From positions 1 through 39,176 of IMG/VR virus record IMGVR_UViG_3300025087_000189: a DNA stretch of 39,176 nucleotides, one strand, 5' to 3'. This document shows positions 3,919 through 37,534 of the stretch, one piece after another; the first letter of the stretch is position 1; each line of letters begins with the position of its first letter. Under the pieces are notes generated by a model. The model had not been told where the DNA came from. It did no database searches and saw nothing but the letters and a program-made list of their open reading frames with translations. This DNA is from a virus. Both the position numbers and the translations under genes were made by a program.

Positions 3919-4584
3919 TCAAGCAATTGATCGTCCATCCGTGATGGGCGATGCCGCCGAGAGACACAAGGGGCAGGATTCGGAATGCAACCCTCTACGG
4001 ATATGCCACCGAAGATGATTTGTAGACATCGCAGCCCTACGGCCAAACCGAGAGAGCTCAGAGTGGGGCGCACTGCCAACACCCGCCGCGTAGCCAGTCT
4101 TGGCCCACTTGCGGCCCCACTCGATGATTTCTTTGGGCCCCCGCTCCGCGTTGACAATGATTGCGCCACGCCGGCCGTTCTCCCGTCGCTGCTCCGGAGT
4201 TCTCTCCGAGTTGGCCTTCTTGAGGACGGGCACCCCATATCTGTGGGCTGTCTCGCTCCGCTTGGCCTGCGAGAGACCAAGCAGCGAGCTAGTGCAGTTG
4301 AGGTTGATGTTCAATGGTCTCCATCCCCGATTCGTGTAGCAACGAAGGACATGGGCCTCGGCTTTCGGCCAATCTCTATGTCGATATTGGAAGAGCACCT
4401 TCGACGTCGGCAATGGGGCTCCAAAGAGCCGACAAAGATGAACATATCGGCCGACCCGCTTCACGCCCCATCTCTCGTTCATGTGCTGACGGAATCGCAA
4501 GGCCGGATTCCAAGACGCGCCGACATACACGTAGCGACGGCCTTCCAAGCAATAAACCCAATGGTCTTTTTCGGTCTCGCTCAT
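3919..4584 (-). CDS. GIY-YIG homing endonuclease with C-terminal RWH/CPxC module
   Basis: A 221-residue protein. The N-terminus 'HWVYCLEGRRYVYVGASWNPALRFRQHM' is a GIY-YIG nuclease core: VYC and YVYVGAS take the GIY and YIG places, with an Arg in the following helix. The middle has a basic stretch ('KANSERTPEQRRENGRRGA') like the NUMOD DNA-binding motifs of homing enzymes. Residues about 187-207 ('NHLRWHIRRGL ... CPLC') recur in the HNH protein at 6991-7638. ATG 4584 has a GAGGAA ribosome site. It is separated from the repressor gene by a large inverted repeat. Confidence 0.88.
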   Translation of the reverse strand: MSETEKDHWVYCLEGRRYVYVGASWNPALRFRQHMNERWGVKRVGRYVHLCRLFGAPLPTSKVLFQYRHRDWPKAEAHVLRCYTNRGWRPLNINLNCTSSLLGLSQAKRSETAHRYGVPVLKKANSERTPEQRRENGRRGAIIVNAERGPKEIIEWGRKWAKTGYAAGVGSAPHSELSRFGRRAAMSTNHLRWHIRRGLHSESCPLCLSAASPITDGRSIA

Positions 4585-4682: not shown

Positions 4683-4775
4683 ATGCTTGAGCAGATTGAT
4701 CGGCCGGGCTACGCGACTTATCTCGCAGTCCTGGCTTGCGCCTTTGTGCTCATCAGGAAGATCGGCTCCGAATGA
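4683..4775 (+). CDS. 30-residue membrane micro-protein, divergent from the GIY-YIG gene
   Basis: ATG 4683 has GGAGG at 6 nt. The product starts MLEQIDRPGYATYL and has a short hydrophobic helix (LAVLACAFVLI) before a charged end. It is the only + strand gene left of the early promoter and no convincing promoter is visible for it. The ribosome site is the best evidence, and part of it lies in the arm of the inverted repeat. Confidence 0.45.
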   Translation: MLEQIDRPGYATYLAVLACAFVLIRKIGSE

Positions 4776-5248: not shown

Positions 5249-5318
5249 ATAGGCGCAGTCCGAAATCCCCCCTGGAGAGCATAGAACAGACGTGCGGGGG
5301 AGCTACAGTGAGGGAGCC

Positions 5319-5729
5319 ATGACCTACGAGCTTTCACGGAAGACAAGGCGAGGCGGCTACAGCACGAGCTTCGGCCTGACGGTCGAGGAAGTTCTGGCGC
5401 AGCTCCCACGGGTTAAGGCTGAGGCTTCCGTGCGCCTCGCCGGACGCGTTGTTGGCGAAGCCTGGCTTGGCGACTACCAGGGAAAGAAACGCTGGCTCTG
5501 GTATCTCGAAACGCCCGATGGCGAAACCGCTGGAGGCCTAGGCGATCAGGAGCCGCTGAGTCCCGATGGTAGGCCGCTTCGCAAAGGCATGTGTGTCTGC
5601 ACGATGCATTGCTCCAATTCCTGCGAGCCCACCTGCTGTCCGGACGGAACACCTTGGTGCAACTGCTGGTGCCATGAAGATGACTACCGCGAAATGGCGC
5701 GAGTACGACCAGAAGGGATTCCATTCTAG
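5319..5729 (+). CDS. Early Cys-rich protein, first gene of the rightward operon
   Basis: A 136-residue protein. The N-terminus (MTYELSRKTRRGGYSTSFGLTVEEVL) is followed by a compact domain and a striking cluster of ten cysteines and three histidines ('CVCTMHCSNSCEPTCC' then 'CNCWCH') likely to bind zinc or form a metal cluster. It ends in 'EGIPF', similar to the Pro-Phe tip of SSB proteins. I use ATG 5319, just after AGGGAG, though the spacing is short; GTG 5292 is an in-frame alternative. Its place at the head of the early operon suggests host take-over or regulation. No family is recognised. Confidence 0.65.
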   Translation: MTYELSRKTRRGGYSTSFGLTVEEVLAQLPRVKAEASVRLAGRVVGEAWLGDYQGKKRWLWYLETPDGETAGGLGDQEPLSPDGRPLRKGMCVCTMHCSNSCEPTCCPDGTPWCNCWCHEDDYREMARVRPEGIPF

Positions 5730-5731
5730 CC

Positions 5732-5983
5732 ATGATAAAGCCGCCGTTCTCGCGCCGACGGATGATGAAGAAGTCGTGGTATCGGGAGATGACCGTCACC
5801 GACATGACCGCCGTCTACCGGGCGCTGGGTGTGGAGATACGGGTAGCAGCCGAGAGACTCATGGCGGCCGGCTGGTCCGAGGACGAGGCCTATCGCCTGA
5901 CCACGCAGGCTTCGGATCAGTTCGGCGCCGGGTACCCGGGCTGGCAGAAGGTCAAGGCGGTTCAGGAGGCGCTGAACGCATGA
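5732..5983 (+). CDS. Small early protein, unknown
   Basis: An 83-residue helical protein ('VTDMTAVYRALGVEIRVAAERLMAAGWSEDEAYRLTT...', UBA-like spacing of helices). It starts two bases after the previous stop and ends in an ATGA overlap with the next gene. The start is unsure because none of ATG 5732, 5762 or 5789 has a well-spaced ribosome site. The conserved-looking part begins at MTVTDM. Confidence 0.6.
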   Translation: MIKPPFSRRRMMKKSWYREMTVTDMTAVYRALGVEIRVAAERLMAAGWSEDEAYRLTTQASDQFGAGYPGWQKVKAVQEALNA

Positions 5984-6264
5984 CCCCATCGATCGCCGAC
6001 CTCCGCCGCGGCCTCGCCCTGGGTGCCGGGCAGTGGCTCGCCGTCACCGCCGATGCCACGGACGACCAGGTGCGGGAGATATGCCTCACCGCGTACAACT
6101 GGACGGACGTCGTGATCGAGCGCGACGCCGCCATCGTGCGCGCCAGGCCGCGAGCGATCGAGAACCTGCGCCGGCCGCACCCACAACAGAAGTCCATCGA
6201 CGCGACAAGCGCCGATCTGCTCCGCCAAACCGAACCGCAACCGCAAAGGAGACTGAACCCATGA
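5980..6264 (+). CDS. Small early protein, unknown
   Basis: A 94-residue protein with AGGAGG about 10 nt before ATG 5980 and ATGA overlaps at both ends. The N-terminal 60 residues look folded ('IADLRRGLALGAGQWLAVTADATDDQV...'). The tail is basic and Gln/Pro-rich. No domain is recognised. It sits directly upstream of the OB-fold-like gene and is probably co-translated with it. Confidence 0.6.
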   Translation: MTPSIADLRRGLALGAGQWLAVTADATDDQVREICLTAYNWTDVVIERDAAIVRARPRAIENLRRPHPQQKSIDATSADLLRQTEPQPQRRLNP

Positions 6265-6830
6265 AGACCGAAGACCTTTTCCCCCGCAAGTGGCTCTCAG
6301 GAGAGGACCTCCCACACGACACTACCGCCACGATCGACCGCGTCGTGATGGAGGAGATGCACAACCCGGCCACACGTAAGAAGGAGCGCAAGCCCGTGGC
6401 CTACTTCGTCTCGAAGCGCAAGGCCCTGATCCTCAACCGGACCAACTGGATGACACTCGCCGGGCTCTTTGGCGACGAGTCGGATGAGTGGTCTGGCCGG
6501 CGGATCGTGCTCGGCGCGGACGAGGTCGACTCGCCCCAGGGCCGCATGCGAGCCCCGCGGATCCGAGCGGTCCACCCCGAAACCCTGGCGACCCCGCCGG
6601 CTGAGATCCCCGAGGAAGAGGACGAGGAGGAAGAGATCCTGACACCCGTGGCCCCGCCGCCGCCGATGGCCAACGGCGATGGCAAGAAAAAGACTCTCGT
6701 GGTTACGGAGTTCTGGGCAGCGATCCGCGACAATCACAAGACCCGCGAGGAAGGGGCGCGCATCCTTGACCACTGCAAGGGTGACTTCGAAGCCGCACTC
6801 AAACAGATCCACGAGCCGACGCCGATCTGA
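6261..6830 (+). CDS. OB-fold-like DNA-binding protein with C-terminal helical domain
   Basis: A 189-residue protein. Residues 1-105 match a widespread phage family by pattern ('WLSGEDLPHDTTATIDRVVMEEM', 'VAYFVSKRKALILNRTNWMTLAGLFGDESDEWSGRRIVLG', then a closing iRA..P strand). Its members look like OB-fold proteins and often lie near recombination genes. An acidic linker (EEEDEEEEI) and a Pro run lead to a ~45-residue helical end ('VTEFWAAIRDNHKTREEGARILDHCKGDFEAAL') like a UBA-type domain. A role in binding single-stranded DNA is inferred. AAGGAG precedes ATG 6261, and the stop shares a base with the next start. Confidence 0.6.
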   Translation: MKTEDLFPRKWLSGEDLPHDTTATIDRVVMEEMHNPATRKKERKPVAYFVSKRKALILNRTNWMTLAGLFGDESDEWSGRRIVLGADEVDSPQGRMRAPRIRAVHPETLATPPAEIPEEEDEEEEILTPVAPPPPMANGDGKKKTLVVTEFWAAIRDNHKTREEGARILDHCKGDFEAALKQIHEPTPI

Positions 6831-6994
6831 TGGACGTGCCGCTCACGCCGGTCGAACGCACCGCCGCCTCCGAAGCGCTGCGCCGGAAGGACAAGCGGAT
6901 CGCCGACCTGGAGCGTAAGGCCCTGACGTGCCCGAGCTGCGGGTGCGATTCAAGAATGCCGCCTATGCGGCTTCGATCCTACGAGGGACGATGA
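6830..6994 (+). CDS. Truncated zinc-finger protein split by an HNH gene
   Basis: A 54-residue frame starting in a TGATG overlap with the previous gene. A charged helix (ERTAASEALRRKDKRIADLERKA) leads into 'LTCPSCGC', half of a zinc knuckle, then an Arg-rich tail with no clear sense. The stop overlaps the HNH start as ATGA. The CPSCG here (6929-6943) nearly repeats the CPMCG near the end of the HNH protein (7510-7524). Joining at that motif gives a plausible intact 75-residue zinc-finger protein with an SSB-like tip, so this looks like the 5' remnant of a gene invaded by the nuclease. Confidence 0.55.
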   Translation: MDVPLTPVERTAASEALRRKDKRIADLERKALTCPSCGCDSRMPPMRLRSYEGR

Positions 6995-7638
6995 AGATCG
7001 ACGACCTTCCACGCTGGCTGGCGATGAGGATTAGTCTCAAGCACGACTGTTGGGAGTGGATGGGCTTCAGGAATCGACAGGGATATGGCCACTGCCAGTA
7101 TCGGGGACGATCCCATCTTGTCCATCGACTGGTCTATACGATGACCAAGGGCGCAATTCCCCAGGGACTGACCCTTGATCATCTGTGTCGCAATCCGTCG
7201 TGCGTCAACCCCGAACACCTGGAGCCGGTGTCGCAGAGAGAGAACACACTGAGGGGCGTCGTCGGGCAAAAGATGATGGCGACACATTGCTCGCACGGCC
7301 ACGAATACACGGAAGAGAACTCATACTACAGGAAGCGCGGCGGGCGAGAATGTCGCAAGTGCCATACCACAATTCAATCGGCAAGACACCATCGCCTGCA
7401 CCCCGAGGCCGGCCACATCAATGTTCTCTTGTCTATACGCGGACGTGAGATCGGTATCAAGGCCCGGCATGTGAGGTGGCACGTCAACCGTGGCCTTGTC
7501 GGGCCGGATTGTCCGATGTGCGGTGCGGATCCCGGCGCGAAGCCGGCCGACGAGCCGCTGGAGCACCGTTTCGTGGGCCCAGGCGAGGTGGACGACAACA
7601 GTGGCGGCGGGCACGAAACCGATCCGGTGCCGTTCTAG
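6991..7638 (+). CDS. HNH homing endonuclease with RWH/CPxC module and SSB-like C-terminal tail
   Basis: A 215-residue protein. Residues about 20-90 are an HNH_3 nuclease ('CWEWMGFRNRQGYG', 'VHRLVY', 'LDHLCRNPSCVNPEHLEPV'). A second zinc pair follows ('HCSHGHEY ... CRKCHT'). Residues 157-177 ('RHVRWHVNRGL...CPMC') match a module in the GIY-YIG protein at 3919-4584. After this comes a 37-residue tail rich in Gly/Asp ending 'HETDPVPF', unlike nuclease tails but like the acidic Pro-Phe tip by which SSB proteins recruit partners. I infer fusion of the mobile nuclease to the 3' end of the gene it entered. Confidence 0.88.
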   Translation: MKIDDLPRWLAMRISLKHDCWEWMGFRNRQGYGHCQYRGRSHLVHRLVYTMTKGAIPQGLTLDHLCRNPSCVNPEHLEPVSQRENTLRGVVGQKMMATHCSHGHEYTEENSYYRKRGGRECRKCHTTIQSARHHRLHPEAGHINVLLSIRGREIGIKARHVRWHVNRGLVGPDCPMCGADPGAKPADEPLEHRFVGPGEVDDNSGGGHETDPVPF

Positions 7639-7639
7639 G

Positions 7640-7687
7640 ATGGCGCAACTAGCCGCCCTCGCCGCAGGGGAGGTGAAGCATGATTGA
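7640..7687 (+). CDS. 15-codon leader-like frame in the repeated linker
   Basis: ATG 7640 directly follows the HNH stop (TAGG-ATG), reads MAQLAALAAGEVKHD and ends 8 nt inside the next gene. The peptide equals the C-terminus of the neighbouring paralog family, so it is either a coupling peptide or a leftover 3' end of a family member removed by recombination or HNH entry. Confidence 0.35.
   Translation: MAQLAALAAGEVKHD
7652..7683 (+). repeat. Repeated gene-junction linker, site 1
   Basis: Core GCCGCAGGGGAGGTGAAGC followed by ATGA. It supplies a strong ribosome site and the start of the 103-residue gene. Related copies are at 7956-7979, 8380-8407, 8461-8481 (+) and 36362-36390 (-). Confidence 0.75.
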
Positions 7688-7991
7688 CGCCCAGACGGTG
7701 CTGGCACGATGGCGGGACTGGGTTCAGGCGTTCCGAGAGGCTCGCCCTGAGAGACTTGGCACCTCCGAGAGGATGTGCATTCACTTGTGGGATGCCCTGG
7801 CCGCCTCGCAGGTGCGGGTGGAGGCCATGATGCTCCACAAACTTGCCCCGTCCCTTTCGGGGCCTCCGGAGTGCCTGGACTTTGCTGGGAGGGTGACGCC
7901 CTATGGTGCAGCATACGCTGAGGGCTATCGCGCCCGCCAAGCCGAGATAGAGGCCGCCGCCCTCTCCGCAGGGGAGGTTCCCGATGACTGA
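7680..7991 (+). CDS. Small protein of the DA(K/Q)TVL paralog family, member 1
   Basis: A 103-residue protein starting MIDAQTVLARWRDW, with GGGGAGGTG before ATG 7680. It shares three blocks with the proteins at 7984-8481 and 35678-36181: N-terminal DAxTVL, a central LAAS..RVEA(L/M) helix, and an Ala-rich end (AALSAGEV). The part between the blocks is unrelated. Its function is unknown. The pattern suggests modular shuffling around conserved joints. Confidence 0.65.
   Translation: MIDAQTVLARWRDWVQAFREARPERLGTSERMCIHLWDALAASQVRVEAMMLHKLAPSLSGPPECLDFAGRVTPYGAAYAEGYRARQAEIEAAALSAGEVPDD
7956..7979 (+). repeat. Repeated gene-junction linker, site 2
   Basis: Reads gccgccctctccgcagggga then ggt, close to the core of the other copies. 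It ends one paralog and forms the ribosome site of the next (7984). Confidence 0.65.
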
Positions 7992-8481
7992 CAAGCCCGA
8001 CGCCAAGACAGTGCTGGAGCGACTACGAGAACTGGAAGAGGAAGCCAGTCCCGCGCCTTGGACTGCGCAGGTGGACGAGGACCACAACCAAGAAGGTTCT
8101 GTGTGGTGTGGCGCATACGAGGACGAACGGCCGGCAGTGTGTGGTAGCCATGACGACGAATGGCCGATGGATGCGGGAGACGCGGAACTGATAGCCGCCC
8201 TGCGCAACGACGCCATTCCCGCCCTCGCCGCCTCGGAGCAGACAGTCGCTACGCTCCAGGCGCGGGTGGAGGCGCTGGAGAAGCGACGCGGATTGGTGCC
8301 TCTGTGGGTTGGACGGCGATACCATCGCGAGCTTGGACACACTCGCCCATTCCGGGAGTGCATGCACGAGGTTTGTCAGGCCGCCCTCGCCGCAGGGGAG
8401 GTGAAGCCCGCGGATCGTGTACACGACGAGTGGGGGCAGAACGTGATGGACGTGCCGCCAGAGGAGGTGAAGCATGACTGA
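7984..8481 (+). CDS. DA(K/Q)TVL paralog family, member 2
   Basis: A 165-residue acidic protein starting MTDKPDAKTVLERLRELEEEA. The first 11 residues are identical to those of the protein at 35678-36181, and 33 of 34 bases around the two starts match although the genes lie on opposite strands. The middle has a helix 'LAASEQTVATLQARVEALEKR'. Near the end the linker repeat occurs inside the gene ('AALAAGEVKP') and again at its stop, so the last ~35 residues look like an added segment. A stretch at about residues 23-70 (PAPWTAQVDEDHNQEGSVW..., DAELIAAL) resembles a small ead/Ea22-like phage protein domain. Function is unknown. Confidence 0.65.
   Translation: MTDKPDAKTVLERLRELEEEASPAPWTAQVDEDHNQEGSVWCGAYEDERPAVCGSHDDEWPMDAGDAELIAALRNDAIPALAASEQTVATLQARVEALEKRRGLVPLWVGRRYHRELGHTRPFRECMHEVCQAALAAGEVKPADRVHDEWGQNVMDVPPEEVKHD
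8380..8407 (+). repeat. Repeated gene-junction linker, site 3 (inside a gene)
   Basis: The full core is present but followed by ccgcgg in place of ATGA, so here it is translated through. This suggests a former gene end that was joined to extra sequence. Confidence 0.65.
8461..8481 (+). repeat. Repeated gene-junction linker, site 4
   Basis: gaggaggtgaagcatgactg, then a: the end of member 2 and the ribosome site/ATG of the 84-residue gene. The 5' part of the core differs from the other copies. Confidence 0.65.
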
Positions 8482-8728
8482 CAACCCGCACGCTCCTCAT
8501 CCAAGGTGGCTCTGGGTTTCGTCGTGTTCCCTGTGCGGATGGCGCAGTCCTCGTTTCGACAGCGAGAACATTGCTCGGGGCCTGGCATTGCTTCATGCGG
8601 TAATAAGGCATCCTTATGGACACACGACCATTGCCGCAGTGGACCGTCGGACCGCACTCGTGAATGATGCGATGGGATTACCGGGAGGGGCAGGGGAGGC
8701 CCAAGAGACGCCCCAGGACGGGGGCTAG
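8474..8728 (+). CDS. Small protein with a possible zinc pair, unknown
   Basis: An 84-residue protein with a strong GAGGAGGTG ribosome site before ATG 8474. 'WVSSCSLCGWRSPRF' offers a CxxC pair and 'LLHAVIRHPYGH' offers histidines. A Gly/Glu-rich tail follows. The layout resembles the small C/H proteins common in phages of GC-rich hosts. It overlaps the previous gene by 8 nt. Confidence 0.55.
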   Translation: MTDNPHAPHPRWLWVSSCSLCGWRSPRFDSENIARGLALLHAVIRHPYGHTTIAAVDRRTALVNDAMGLPGGAGEAQETPQDGG

Positions 8729-8729
8729 G

Positions 8730-9041
8730 ATGGCCGTCCAATCCGTGGACGCCCCCCAAGGCGGCTTGCGGACGTTGATCAGGTCCTACGGGTCGATCCG
8801 CAAGGCCGCCGAAGCCCTGGGCGTTTCTATCGGAGTGGCCGCCCGTGCGGCCAAGGGGCAGGAACCGAGGCGGGCTGACCTTCGCGCCGCGCTGGGTCTT
8901 CCGCCTGCCATCGGGCCCGATGTCCTTGTCATGGGCCAGCCCGTGACCTGTCGCTGCGGGAGGGTGTTCGTGGGCAAATGGGGGACGCGCAGGCGGCTGT
9001 GTCCGATCTGTCGCCCGAGCCCCCCGGCTCAGCTGGGCTGA
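8730..9041 (+). CDS. HTH plus zinc-knuckle protein, last gene of the rightward operon
   Basis: A 103-residue protein starting at ATG 8730 (TAGG-ATG after the previous stop). Residues about 14-55 form a helix-turn-helix ('LIRSYGSIRKAAEALGVSIGVAARAAKG'). The C-terminus has 'CRCGRVF ... RRLCPIC', a four-Cys zinc knuckle. It probably binds DNA and may act as a regulator. Transcription ends just after it. Confidence 0.65.
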   Translation: MAVQSVDAPQGGLRTLIRSYGSIRKAAEALGVSIGVAARAAKGQEPRRADLRAALGLPPAIGPDVLVMGQPVTCRCGRVFVGKWGTRRRLCPICRPSPPAQLG

Positions 9042-10774: not shown

Positions 10775-11356
10775 ATGAACAAGATGCGAACTGCCCACTG
10801 TGCCCACTGCGGAGAAAACTTCTCCGCATATGCAAGCGAAATAAGAAGAGGCAGAAGATTCTGCTCTACTCGGTGCCAGTATCAAGAGCGGAGCGCGGAT
10901 CCCGTCGGCCGCTTTTGGGCGAAGGTCAAGAAAACTGGTACATGCTGGTTCTGGACTGCCGCCGTCGCGGGAAAGGGGTATGGGAGATTCAGTGTGGCGC
11001 CCGAGATGCCGGATGTCTATGCCCACCGCTTTTCGTGGGAGATGCACAATGGCCCGATCCCCAATGGAATGATGGTTTGCCATCGCTGTGACAACAGCCG
11101 GTGCGTTCGTCCGGATCACCTGTTTCTCGGCAGCGCCCAAGACAACGTCAATGACATGATCGGGAAAGGTCGGCAACCATCCTATGACGACCGCCGTGGC
11201 CCTCGCAGCCATTTCGCCAAGCTTGCCCAAAGACAAGTGGAAACTATCCGCATGATGTATGGCTCCGGACGTTTCCGGCAAGCAGACCTCGCCTCCATCT
11301 TCGGCGTTAGCCGCAACTGCATTCAAGAAATCACCTCGGGCAAGAGCTGGAGGTAA
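10775..11356 (+). CDS. HNH homing endonuclease inserted antisense in the late operon
   Basis: A 193-residue protein. The N-terminal zinc pair 'CAHCGENF ... FCSTRCQ' precedes an HNH_3 nuclease ('CWFWTAAVAGKGYGRF', 'AHRFSW', 'VCHRCDNSRCVRPDHLFLGSAQDNV'). A C-terminal helix-turn-helix ('RQADLASIFGVSRNCIQEI') would bind the target. It runs against every gene around it and has its own promoter, signs of a self-contained mobile gene. Start 10775 is the first ATG; if the promoter at 10744-10772 is used the real start must be ATG 10784. Confidence 0.92.
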   Translation: MNKMRTAHCAHCGENFSAYASEIRRGRRFCSTRCQYQERSADPVGRFWAKVKKTGTCWFWTAAVAGKGYGRFSVAPEMPDVYAHRFSWEMHNGPIPNGMMVCHRCDNSRCVRPDHLFLGSAQDNVNDMIGKGRQPSYDDRRGPRSHFAKLAQRQVETIRMMYGSGRFRQADLASIFGVSRNCIQEITSGKSWR

Positions 11357-17190: not shown

Positions 17191-17495
17191 TCCAGCAGGC
17201 GCGATTTCTGGCCCATGCCCAGGCTGCCAAGAGTCTCCGCCGAGATTTCAGGCAGGATAAAGCGCACTGCCGCATCCTGCGCCGCGGCCGCCTTGGCCGC
17301 CGCCTTCTCGTCCGCCGGCTTCTTCACCAAGGACTGTCCCGCATCGATCATGTCCCGCAGAATGCGGCTCAGGCGGGCCAGTCCAGCGACGTCCATCTCG
17401 GCCCGCGAGAGGAAGTCGATCTTGGTTCCGTCTTCCAGCTCAAAGTGGTCCCGCTCTGGACGGAGTTCGTTGAAGCGTAGTGTCGCTACCGGCAC
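17130..17495 (-). CDS. Tail assembly chaperone (G-type)
   Basis: A 121-residue protein with AAAGGAGG 5 nt before GTG 17495. 'RPERDHFELEDGTKIDFLSRAEMDVAGLARLSRILRDMI' is the usual start of phage G-type chaperones, with a Lys/Ala-rich middle and a Gly/Pro end where the frameshift region lies. It would coat the tape measure until the tube polymerises. Its first 56 nt overlap the end of a GIY-YIG gene. Confidence 0.7.
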   Translation of the reverse strand: MPVATLRFNELRPERDHFELEDGTKIDFLSRAEMDVAGLARLSRILRDMIDAGQSLVKKPADEKAAAKAAAAQDAAVRFILPEISAETLGSLGMGQKSRLLEWWRERNLPAGPGQGKAQPG

Positions 17496-18192
17496 TCAGG
17501 CCTCCTTTGGCCGTTGGTGGCCAGCAACCATATTTGCCCCTAGCCTGGGGAGTGTGCTTTCTACCGCGGTGGGTTGCGCCGATCTTGGCTCTGGTTTCTG
17601 GGGAGTGAGGGCCGTGGGTCTTGCCCAGATTGAGTTCCCTCAGCTTCGTGCGCGTTTCTACTGAGACCGGGTGGCCCATCAAGGAAGCCGCGATCATGGC
17701 TCGCGTCTCGTCCGTTGGAGCCTCGCGTTTCCTATTTTTCGACGCTGCGCTCATTTTGGCGCGGACCACAGGAGTGAACCTGTTACCTCTTTTCCATGCC
17801 GCTCTTAGGTTGGCATGGTGCTCGGGGGAGCACGGCACCGCGAGCTTTCGGCCCCTTTTCCCAGCCGAGATCCTTCTGCGGGTTTCCGGGCTATGCTTCA
17901 CGCCCAAGCAGTTTCCGGCCGTGGGGGAGATGTTGTACTTGGGCCTCAGCAGGTCTATCCACCACTGCTCACGCTCAATGCAGCGGTCGGGCGCACAGAA
18001 CTCAAGACGGACGAACCTGAATGCGGCCCCCCCATGCTTGTTCCATGCGGCCTGCAAATGCCGATTGGGATGGCTCCGGGTAAGCAACATTCGCCTGTGG
18101 GCCGACCAGCGCTGGCCGAAGCCCTTGGACGCGCTGCCGATGTACAGCTTCCCGTTCGGCCCATTCTGGATGGCGTAGATGCCCGAGGTCAT
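17440..18192 (-). CDS. GIY-YIG homing endonuclease with NUMOD3-like repeats
   Basis: A 250-residue protein. Residues 3-90 are a GIY-YIG nuclease ('SGIYAIQNGPNGKLYIGSASKGFGQRWSAH', 'NRHLQAAWNKHG', 'EQWWIDLLRPKYNISP'). After this come repeated NUMOD3-type units with the pattern (S/T)(P/x)ET(R)xx(I) and GxxR/K ('HSPETRRRISAG', 'HSPETRAKIGATHRGRK') that bind DNA in homing enzymes. It starts one base after the tube-protein stop and overlaps the chaperone start by 56 nt, so it is wedged between two core tail genes. Confidence 0.95.
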   Translation of the reverse strand: MTSGIYAIQNGPNGKLYIGSASKGFGQRWSAHRRMLLTRSHPNRHLQAAWNKHGGAAFRFVRLEFCAPDRCIEREQWWIDLLRPKYNISPTAGNCLGVKHSPETRRRISAGKRGRKLAVPCSPEHHANLRAAWKRGNRFTPVVRAKMSAASKNRKREAPTDETRAMIAASLMGHPVSVETRTKLRELNLGKTHGPHSPETRAKIGATHRGRKHTPQARGKYGCWPPTAKGGLSAGSDTTLQRTPSRAGPL

Positions 18193-35483: not shown

Positions 35484-35688
35484 TCCCCTTGATCTTCCCC
35501 TCCGCGACGACGCACAGGTGAACCTCGCCGCCCACCTGGATCCCCACGGCCTTCGGATACTCCCCCCGCGACCCGCCCCGCTGGACCATCAGCCAGGCAT
35601 AGGCGTGAGTAACACGCATCGATGGCCAGGTGCGCACCAGCTTGAGAACTGCCCGCCGAAGCTCGCGCCTCGTTATCTCACGCGCCAT
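35476..35688 (-). CDS. Small basic protein, unknown
   Basis: A 70-residue protein with AGGAGG 6 nt before ATG 35688. 'MAREITRRELRRAVLKLVRTWPSMRVTHAYAWLMVQRGG' then a beta part ('AVGIQVGGEVHLCVVAEGKI'). No domain is recognised. It overlaps the genes on both sides. The longer upstream frame is a shadow. Confidence 0.5.
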   Translation of the reverse strand: MAREITRRELRRAVLKLVRTWPSMRVTHAYAWLMVQRGGSRGEYPKAVGIQVGGEVHLCVVAEGKIKGNG

Positions 35689-36181
35689 CGCCAGCCTCCT
35701 CCTTCGCCCATCCAGTCCCCGCAAGGCAGTCGTGTTCCAGACTCGAATCATCTCCAAGGCCCTGCCGGGGATCGCGCTTCGCATCCTGTAGAGGACTTGC
35801 AGCAAGCGTCGCATCCAAAGGTGCGTTGGGCGCGGCGGCGAGGGCGGCTACGGGGCAAGTACCAGTATGCCCAATCTCGTGGCTCTGCCCACAGAAATAG
35901 CAGAAGCCGTACTTCACGGGCAGGGTTCCGTCCCAACCGAACTGAAATTTGCGGTCGGGCAACACTTGCTCTAGCGCCTCCACCCGCGCCTCCGAGGCGG
36001 CCAATTGCCGCGAAGCCTGTTGCATGAACGGGATGGGGCACATTCCATCGTGCAAATCGAGGCGACCGCAATGTGCGCATGGTATCCCGACCGGAGCAAG
36101 AACTTGAATCAGTTCGTCCATCGTCATCCCGCCCGGCCATTGTGGGTTTAGCACCGTCTTGGCGTCGGGCTTGTCAGTCAT
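35678..36181 (-). CDS. DA(K/Q)TVL paralog family, member 3, with zinc knuckles
   Basis: A 167-residue protein. It starts MTDKPDAKTVL, identical to member 2 at 7984 on the other strand. It keeps the 'LAASEARVEALEQ' helix and an 'AALAAAP' joint, but carries two zinc sites absent there: 'CAHCGRLDLHDGMC' and 'CYFCGQSHEIGHTGTC'. The family thus combines a fixed head with variable bodies. It starts in an ATGA overlap. Function is unknown. Confidence 0.65.
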   Translation of the reverse strand: MTDKPDAKTVLNPQWPGGMTMDELIQVLAPVGIPCAHCGRLDLHDGMCPIPFMQQASRQLAASEARVEALEQVLPDRKFQFGWDGTLPVKYGFCYFCGQSHEIGHTGTCPVAALAAAPNAPLDATLAASPLQDAKRDPRQGLGDDSSLEHDCLAGTGWAKEEAGDGA

Positions 36182-36369
36182 CGCATGTGCTCCCGATACG
36201 CCTGGCAGCCATCGCAGTCTTCATCATGGTAGCAGGCATTCTCTGAGACCATGACGGGGACATCATGGACGTTGCATGAAGGGCATTTCCCTATTGTCCA
36301 CTTGTGCTTCTTTCCGCACGCGTTACAAGGCTCTAGCCAAACAGGCGAATGTACGACTTGCTCAGTCAT
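36178..36369 (-). CDS. Small multi-cysteine zinc protein
   Basis: A 63-residue protein. 'CNACGKKHKWTIGKCPSC' is a zinc ribbon and 'ACYHDEDCDGCQAYREH' adds further Cys/His. Its start lies in the linker repeat (36362-36390), which supplies GGGGAGGTG before ATG 36369. The stop overlaps the next gene as ATGA. Confidence 0.6.
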   Translation of the reverse strand: MTEQVVHSPVWLEPCNACGKKHKWTIGKCPSCNVHDVPVMVSENACYHDEDCDGCQAYREHMR

Positions 36370-36390: not shown

Positions 36391-37182
36391 AGTCTGCGCC
36401 AATATGGGGAACCGCTGGATACGCAGTTCTGCCGGCCACGCCTCCGGGTGCGCCCGTTTGTCGGGATGGCCACCCAACTGCTTTACGAACACGGGGACCC
36501 CAGCATCCTCGCATTCGCCGACCAAACTGGCCGCCCATCTGAGGTCCATCGGGCGACAGCCGGGCTGGCTTTCGCCGCCGATGATGACCCAATGGATCCC
36601 GAAGGCCACGGCTTCGTAGCCTCTACCCCATTCCTTCGCCATCGTTCCGAAGAGGCCGAGATCGATCGGGCCCAACAGTGGTTCACAGCTTAGGAATGTC
36701 TGCGTGGCTCTGCTGCTCAGGAGGAGAGGGATCCGCTCGTCCGCACGTTCTTGGTCCTCGACCGAGACGCCGAGCATCACGTTGTCGGCCTCGAGGATCG
36801 CGAGGGGCATAGTGCTCAATCTCTCCGCTCGCTTCGTCAACAGCAACCACGTCAGATTGGGCGTGCAAAGGATCAGCTCCCACAGGCGTTCGCGCTGCGA
36901 CTCCAGCTCCGGCCTGTCCTCCAGGAAGTCGGACATGCTGCCACAAAATACGCGCTTGCTGATTCCAGCCTCTTGCGCCGCCAGGCTCCACAGTACGGGC
37001 TCCCGCCAATGAGCGTCTCCGAAATGACGACGCGGCGCAGTCGGCCCCCAGATGCTAAGTGGCGCCCACCGCTGTGCCAATCTCTCCGCATAGCAATGCT
37101 GGCATCCGGGGGAAACTTTGGTGCAGCCCCACCAGGGATTGAAGGTATGGTCGCACCACGCAATGCCAGTCTTTGCGCCCAT
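36373..37182 (-). CDS. Gp37/Gp68 family protein (DUF5131, radical-SAM-like cysteines)
   Basis: A 269-residue protein starting 'MGAKTGIAWCDHTFNPWWGCTKVSPGCQHCYAERL', the signature of DUF5131, with Cys10 and the Cys20-x6-Cys27-x2-Cys30 set thought to hold an iron-sulfur cluster. Later motifs also fit ('PNLTWLLLTKRAERL', 'VMLGVSVEDQERADERIPLLL', 'FLSCEPLLGPIDLG', 'WVIIGGESQPGCRPMDLRWA', 'PVFVKQLGG'). The family is widespread in phages; its reaction is not known. ATG 37182 is in a TGATG overlap with an HNH-fold gene. Confidence 0.92.
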   Translation of the reverse strand: MGAKTGIAWCDHTFNPWWGCTKVSPGCQHCYAERLAQRWAPLSIWGPTAPRRHFGDAHWREPVLWSLAAQEAGISKRVFCGSMSDFLEDRPELESQRERLWELILCTPNLTWLLLTKRAERLSTMPLAILEADNVMLGVSVEDQERADERIPLLLSSRATQTFLSCEPLLGPIDLGLFGTMAKEWGRGYEAVAFGIHWVIIGGESQPGCRPMDLRWAASLVGECEDAGVPVFVKQLGGHPDKRAHPEAWPAELRIQRFPILAQTAPQGR

Positions 37183-37502
37183 CAGCCCGCCTTCGGGTTC
37201 CGCACGTCCACCCTCCGCGCTCTCTCGGCAAGGCTCTCATAGATCGCGTCCCCCAACTGGTCGCGCACCCAGACATGGAACGTCAGGGGCCACTCGTGGG
37301 CCCAACGGTGACAGAGGAAGCAAAGCGTCAGACAGTTTTGCGGATCCCAGCGGGTCGCCTTGATCCTTCTCGAAAAGACATGGGCCGCGTGCATCGTCCA
37401 GCCCTGTTCCTTCGACCTTCCGCACCGCCGGCACCGCCAACCATCGCGCTCCTTGATTTCTCTGGCAAAGGCCTCGTCCATTTTTGTGGTGGCTATCTTC
37501 AT
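37182..37502 (-). CDS. HNH-fold nuclease-like protein
   Basis: A 106-residue protein: 'RDGWRCRRCGRSKEQGWTMHAAHVFSRRIKATRWDPQNCLTLCFLCHRWAHEWPLTFHVWV'. It has two Cys pairs for zinc, an 'AAHVFSR' His and an Asn in 'PQNCLTL', a pattern shared by phage recombination-type HNH proteins. Unlike the homing enzymes it has no extra DNA-binding domain, so a role in DNA processing is more likely than mobility. ATG 37502 overlaps a tiny upstream frame as ATGA. Confidence 0.75.
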   Translation of the reverse strand: MKIATTKMDEAFAREIKERDGWRCRRCGRSKEQGWTMHAAHVFSRRIKATRWDPQNCLTLCFLCHRWAHEWPLTFHVWVRDQLGDAIYESLAERARRVDVRNPKAG

Positions 37503-37534
37503 GGCCACTCAGCGTCGCAGACGTGGATCTTCAT
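37499..37534 (-). CDS. 11-codon coupling frame
   Basis: MKIHVCDAEWP, chained by ATGA overlaps to the 14-codon frame before it and the HNH-fold gene after it. Probably it carries ribosomes to the next start. A free peptide role is unproven. Confidence 0.25.
   Translation of the reverse strand: MKIHVCDAEWP

Follow-up and report, generated by a model that had tools for sequence, protein, structure and literature searches.

Phage genes can be broken by free-standing homing nucleases, and the closest described examples of such genes-in-pieces are nrdA of Aeromonas phage Aeh1, which is split by mobE, and T4 gene 60, which is split by mobA (PMC2988022). In both cases, the 3′ part is retained as a separate gene, and the host enzyme works as two chains. 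Homing also brings co-conversion of flanking DNA as a usual by-product (PMC2988022), and nuclease genes have been found at boundaries of genetic exchange between phages (Barth et al., 2023, PMC10448857).

We analyzed a window of 39,176 bases of viral DNA, the whole of IMG/VR record IMGVR_UViG_3300025087_000189, in which a predicted HNH homing endonuclease gene lies inside a former phage gene, here a small zinc gene. As in Aeh1 and T4, no intron or intein is involved, and, as for T4 mobE (UAAUGA), the nuclease start overlaps the upstream stop. Unlike in those systems, the 3′ part of the host gene is fused to the nuclease, and a copy of the host gene's second zinc knuckle is present upstream, out of frame. 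The fusion is a variant of the known phenomenon in which phage genes are broken by free-standing homing nucleases, and is not unprecedented.

Results

The fusion gene occupies positions 6991–7638 on the plus strand and encodes 215 residues. The nuclease proper (6991–7509) continues without a frame break into zinc-gene sequence for the second knuckle and the tail (7510–7638), and the resulting C-terminus, CPMCGADPGAKPADEPLEHRFVGPGEVDDNSGGGHETDPVPF, is followed by a stop at 7638. The start is likely the ATG at 6991, which we preferred because a putative ribosome-binding site (GAGGG, 6983–6987, +, identified by inspection) precedes it and because it forms a 4-base ATGA overlap with the upstream stop; a GTG at 6928 was dropped in its favor. 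An HNH_3 catalytic domain is predicted at 7117–7248 (+), with matches to Pfam PF13392 (E 4e-13; 49.1 bits against a curated cut-off of 24.8) and phrog_826 (E 2e-44). In a structure model for which an alignment of 25 sequences served as input, the core was well predicted, a helix spanned residues 143–165, and residues 181–215 were without secondary structure. The top PDB fold match was I-HmuI, followed by I-PpoI, although the probability of 1.00 that Foldseek assigned to I-HmuI came with an E-value of 0.027 and a TM-score of 0.27. Together, these results point to a phage HNH homing-type endonuclease (HNH_3/phrog_826) with a predicted beta-beta-alpha-metal fold, and we would expect the fused enzyme to be active. 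An Rfam search of positions 5500–9000 returned no match and no group I intron; this result and the in-frame joint behind the nuclease excluded an intron- or intein-encoded endonuclease. The product of end2 from Clavibacter phage CMP1, a free-standing gene of the same phrog_826/HNH_3 type whose start also overlaps its upstream gene, is 43% identical over residues 1–135, but it ends at about residue 143, whereas the window nuclease continues with a C-terminal finger and the captured tail.

This finger, HVRWHVNRGLVGPDCPMC, spans 7468–7521 (+), and its last CxxC is encoded by the captured DNA. The residues before the joint, HVRWHVNRGLVGPD, form part of the pattern H-x-R-W-H-V-x-R-G-x5-C-x2-C (the RWH finger), which we found in 101 viral stretches, on GIY-YIG, other nuclease-like and replication-like proteins. 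Because the query fixed the H, R, W, H, R, G and C positions, their invariance is by construction; among the positions left free, Pro was preferred at the second residue ahead of the first Cys, and Asn before Arg. A test scan against Pfam gave the finger no significant match, and it is unnamed though widespread. On phage nucleases, including those of GIY-YIG type (L005, L026, L051 and window gene 3919–4584), it lies at or near the C-terminus, as it does here. Many carriers are nuclease-like ORFs, and those listed stop 0–18 residues past the last Cys, whereas in the window fusion 38 foreign residues follow. Because the captured DNA supplies the C-P-M-C of the nuclease, the joint keeps the presumed zinc ligands of both partners; finger and knuckles would presumably bind zinc. 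The RWH finger was also seen on replication-like phage proteins (L016, L018, L033, L102, and BV113_00190 of Glutamicibacter phage BIM BV-113, L009 1240–1656), and in L102 it adjoins an apparent intein end.

The first-pass annotation of this DNA had proposed an in-frame fusion of the nuclease to the 3′ part of a zinc gene, and this was borne out by an intact copy of that gene in viral contig IMGVR_UViG_3300037424_000851 (L007). We traced this contig through a viral-contig scan with the nuclease, in which only residues 174–215 matched, at 95% identity. Positions 4770–5024 of L007 hold an uninterrupted zinc gene encoding 84 residues, MNASLTPVERTAASEALRHKDKRIAALERKALTCPSCGCLLVCPMCGADPGAKPADEPLERRFVGPGEVDDNSGGGHETDPLPF, with two knuckles (CPSCG-CLLV-CPMCG) and a tail that ends in HETDPLPF; protein identity to the window is 87% in the 5′ part and 95% in the tail. 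The gene occupies the same place as in the window, behind the ortholog of window gene 6261, with one extra 67-aa ORF in between. The extra small zinc ORF that separates these two genes in L007 (4608–4773) is matched, at 76% identity, by a counterpart near the opposite end of the window (36178–36343, −). A two-knuckle pattern search identified a further version in L013, which has 62 residues, ends in TCPSCGCRIKCEWCGFDPHAKPEEGARHES with no tail, and lies closely behind a gene that shares a C-terminal module with the window neighbor; a looser two-knuckle version in L014 adjoins a Sak4-like ATPase gene. These comparisons show that the zinc-gene family has two knuckles, four residues apart, and that the small zinc gene is where the tail comes from. 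No further intact copies were found in the phage collection by tblastn or in a pattern scan of genome contigs, where both matches were unrelated, and the viral pattern scan returned only the L007 contig and L013, plus an unrelated coiled-coil protein (L127). Four other candidate relatives (L116–L119) proved to be other zinc proteins. With only one intact long-form relative known, it is the agreement in layout between L013 and L007 that points to the window, rather than L007, as the genome that changed.

Since the relatives carry two knuckles, the motif at 6929 in the window corresponds to the first knuckle and that at 7510 to the second. The near-repeat reported at first pass between 6929–6943 and 7510–7524 is present, with 11 of 15 bases in agreement, but its two members are not counterparts. 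Joining 6929 with 7510 was a mis-join, as the true counterpart of 7510 lies at 6957–6979 in a different frame, and the 75-residue, one-knuckle protein restored in this way matches no relative that we found. The nuclease joint correspondingly sits at the second knuckle, and not at the CPxCG codons of the first, where entry had been placed. The uninterrupted homolog that was to be sought does exist in L007, albeit with 84 residues and two knuckles. The same annotation had held that finding the tail on many other HNH proteins would speak against it; we looked for the tail on such proteins and found it on none.

The upstream piece of the zinc gene is a 54-aa ORF at 6830–6994 (+), which reads ...ALTCPSCG CDSRMPPMRLRSYEGR before its stop and consists of 39 homologous codons followed by 15 out-of-frame residues. 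Its first knuckle, CPSCG (6929–6943, +), is conserved in L007 and L013. A second knuckle, CRLCGFDPT (6957–6983, +), has been shifted out of frame by one base, with the offset falling within 6947–6956, and the spacing between the knuckles is 13 nt, as opposed to 12 in all three relatives. Only 44 nt separate the last homologous codon of this piece from the nuclease start. The captured 3′ part (7510–7638, +) comprises the second knuckle CPMCG and an acidic tail that ends in DPVPF and is disordered in the model; its second knuckle is identical to that of L007 at 27 of 27 bases. Across the whole window, exactly two sites, 6957 and 7510, fit the second-knuckle pattern TGY-N6-TGYGG-N4-GAYCC, against 0 expected from shuffles. 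A CCTTGTC heptamer is found close to the joint on either side, probably by chance.

Compared with L007, the window shows a divergent block at 6616–7509 (left edge approximate), which contains the end of the upstream gene, the 5′ part of the zinc gene and the nuclease, and which lies between two L007-like stretches. The upstream gene is 92.5% identical to L007 left of about 6616 and 72.5% identical to its right, a change point matched in strength by 0 of 500 shuffles, and identity between about 6616 and 7510 is 65–79%. Across the joint, identity rises from 79% in 6829–6946 to 95% in 7510–7644 (Fisher p 2e-4). Synonymous sites follow the same course, with 19 of 30 (63%) differing from L007 in the 5′ part vs. 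5 of 30 (17%) in the tail, which indicates that the two parts diverged from L007 at different times and that protein constraint alone does not account for the step. GC content is 57% in the nuclease, 65–72% in the flanks and 71% in the tail, although the change-point test for GC inside the fusion gave a weak result, equaled in strength by 21 of 500 shuffles, and put the step at 7461, not at 7510. That identity changes stepwise on either side of the nuclease gene resembles the exchange boundaries described in PMC10448857, with the difference that one step here coincides with the coding joint of the fusion. Steps this sharp are more readily explained by a recombinant block than by a simple insertion. 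Because the divergent block has similar identities to L007 and L013, we abandoned the notion that it is L013-like.

These results also bear on a clean in-place split, in which the nuclease would have inserted into this very gene and both halves would derive from one former gene. Such gene-splitting insertions are known (Aeh1 nrdA/mobE and T4 gene 60/mobA, PMC2988022), and both parts are homologous to one L007 gene; however, the second knuckle stands on both sides of the nuclease in copies that agree at only 14 of 27 bases, and the two sides differ greatly in their synonymous divergence from L007. Thus, while an uninterrupted homolog is found at the same place, as for genes-in-pieces, the pieces do not sum to one former gene. 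On this sequence evidence, an in-place split appears already disfavored, and we consider it unlikely.

We also considered whether the fusion is an assembly or sequencing artefact, in which two phages were joined at similar knuckle codons, the one-base offset at 6947–6956 is erroneous, or both. The window is a single metagenomic contig with a short shared stretch at the joint, and the offset interrupts an otherwise conserved knuckle spacing. Against this, the frame is kept across the joint, the nuclease gains exactly the CxxC that its finger needs, L007 has the same neighbor order, and no long identical stretch that could have misled assembly is known at the joint. An artefact therefore seems quite improbable.

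The captured tail had been likened at first pass to the tip of SSB, which could bring the nuclease to replication forks. In the wider form considered here, the Pro-Phe end would dock the nuclease on replication or recombination proteins at forks or breaks, a reading that concerns function and is compatible with either origin of the fusion. The fusion ends in DPVPF and the L007 zinc protein in DPLPF, placing a terminal Pro-Phe on a tail that is unstructured in the model (residues 181–215), and it is the terminal Pro and Phe of the SSB tail that SSB partners bind (PMC7913777). Pro-Phe endings occur at a background of 14 in 1348 mechanical ORFs (about 1%), the orthologs of the neighboring gene share such an ending, and changes in the tail relative to L007 comprise 5 synonymous and 2 replacement differences. 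However, the last nine residues, GHETDPVPF, contain 2 acidic residues vs. 4 in the E. coli SSB tip MDFDDDIPF (PMC7913777), the fusion protein carries no SSB or OB-fold, part of the apparent constraint on the tail is older than the fusion, and the window's own neighbor (6261–6830) ends in TPI. In searches of Pfam and PHROG, neither the fusion nor the intact zinc protein matched an SSB entry, which places both outside the OB-fold SSB family. We regard the SSB-like reading as rather unlikely.

The neighboring upstream gene (6261–6830, +) encodes a phrog_21613-like protein of 189 aa, and in L007 an ortholog of this gene lies ahead of the intact zinc gene. A distant homolog in a Vibrio phage adjoins a YqaJ recombinase gene. 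An OB-fold or SSB identity of the upstream gene was not supported, with a model pLDDT of 49 and weak fold matches. Its C-terminal helical module, VVTeFWxAIRDxxKTrEeGxRIL..GDFExALK, recurs in L013 (13–567) and L014 (1292–2206), so that it is found on three different N-terminal domains, one of them a Sak4-like ATPase, and in L014 it gives a weak UBA-like match. Several cluster proteins end in Pro-Phe, namely those encoded at window 5316–5729 (+, EGIPF), L007 4567 (EEAPF) and L013 567 (ESAPF), which hints at a common docking end; the APF endings of the two neighbor orthologs are suggestive of a common docking partner.

Across the 39 kb of the window, nuclease-like genes of HNH or GIY-YIG type number at least seven (242–628 −, 2430–2942 −, 3919–4584 −, 6991–7638 +, 10775–11356 +, 17440–18192 − and 37182–37508 −), which makes this an unusually invaded phage genome, although the GIY-YIG call at 3919–4584 and the HNH call at 37182–37508 are below curated cut-offs. 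A repeated leader, GCCGCCCTCGCCGCAGGGGAGGTGAAGCATGA, located at 7652–7688, 7956–7992 and 8380–8416, and at 35678–36181 on the minus strand, precedes small genes. Some of these genes share the start MTDKPDAKTVL..., a pattern suggestive of shuffled cassettes.

Discussion

The explanation that we favor, and hold to be reasonably probable, is that an L007-like phage genome acquired, by recombination, an HNH gene and its flanking DNA, which included a divergent zinc-gene allele. The incoming gene would have been a free-standing homing-type gene, and the imported block would have entered in a single event, presumably driven by homing, with its left edge within the neighboring gene at about 6616 and its right edge exactly at the CPMC codons in the second knuckle of the resident zinc gene. 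These resident codons would thereby have replaced the C-x2-C codons and stop with which the nuclease originally ended. The nuclease would thus keep a complete zinc-binding finger and gain the 38-residue unstructured tail of the resident gene, and the zinc gene would be left as an upstream piece whose second knuckle is out of frame. A donor with an unfused nuclease was not found in the collections scanned.

As for function, we think it most probable that the nuclease tolerates the tail as a passenger; recruitment of the nuclease by the tail to replication or recombination proteins is a less probable alternative. A broader proposal, that the C-x2-C common to RWH-finger homing nucleases and zinc-knuckle genes can serve as a site of tail exchange between them and that the Pro-Phe tip here docks the nuclease and improves homing, is decidedly speculative.

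At this locus, a nuclease appears to have absorbed the end of the gene that it displaced, at a joint that keeps its presumed zinc site complete. If this holds more widely, cysteine knuckles would offer mobile nucleases natural sites of exchange at which to acquire new tails. L007 provides the insertion-free allele, which makes both cutting and the effect of the tail directly testable.
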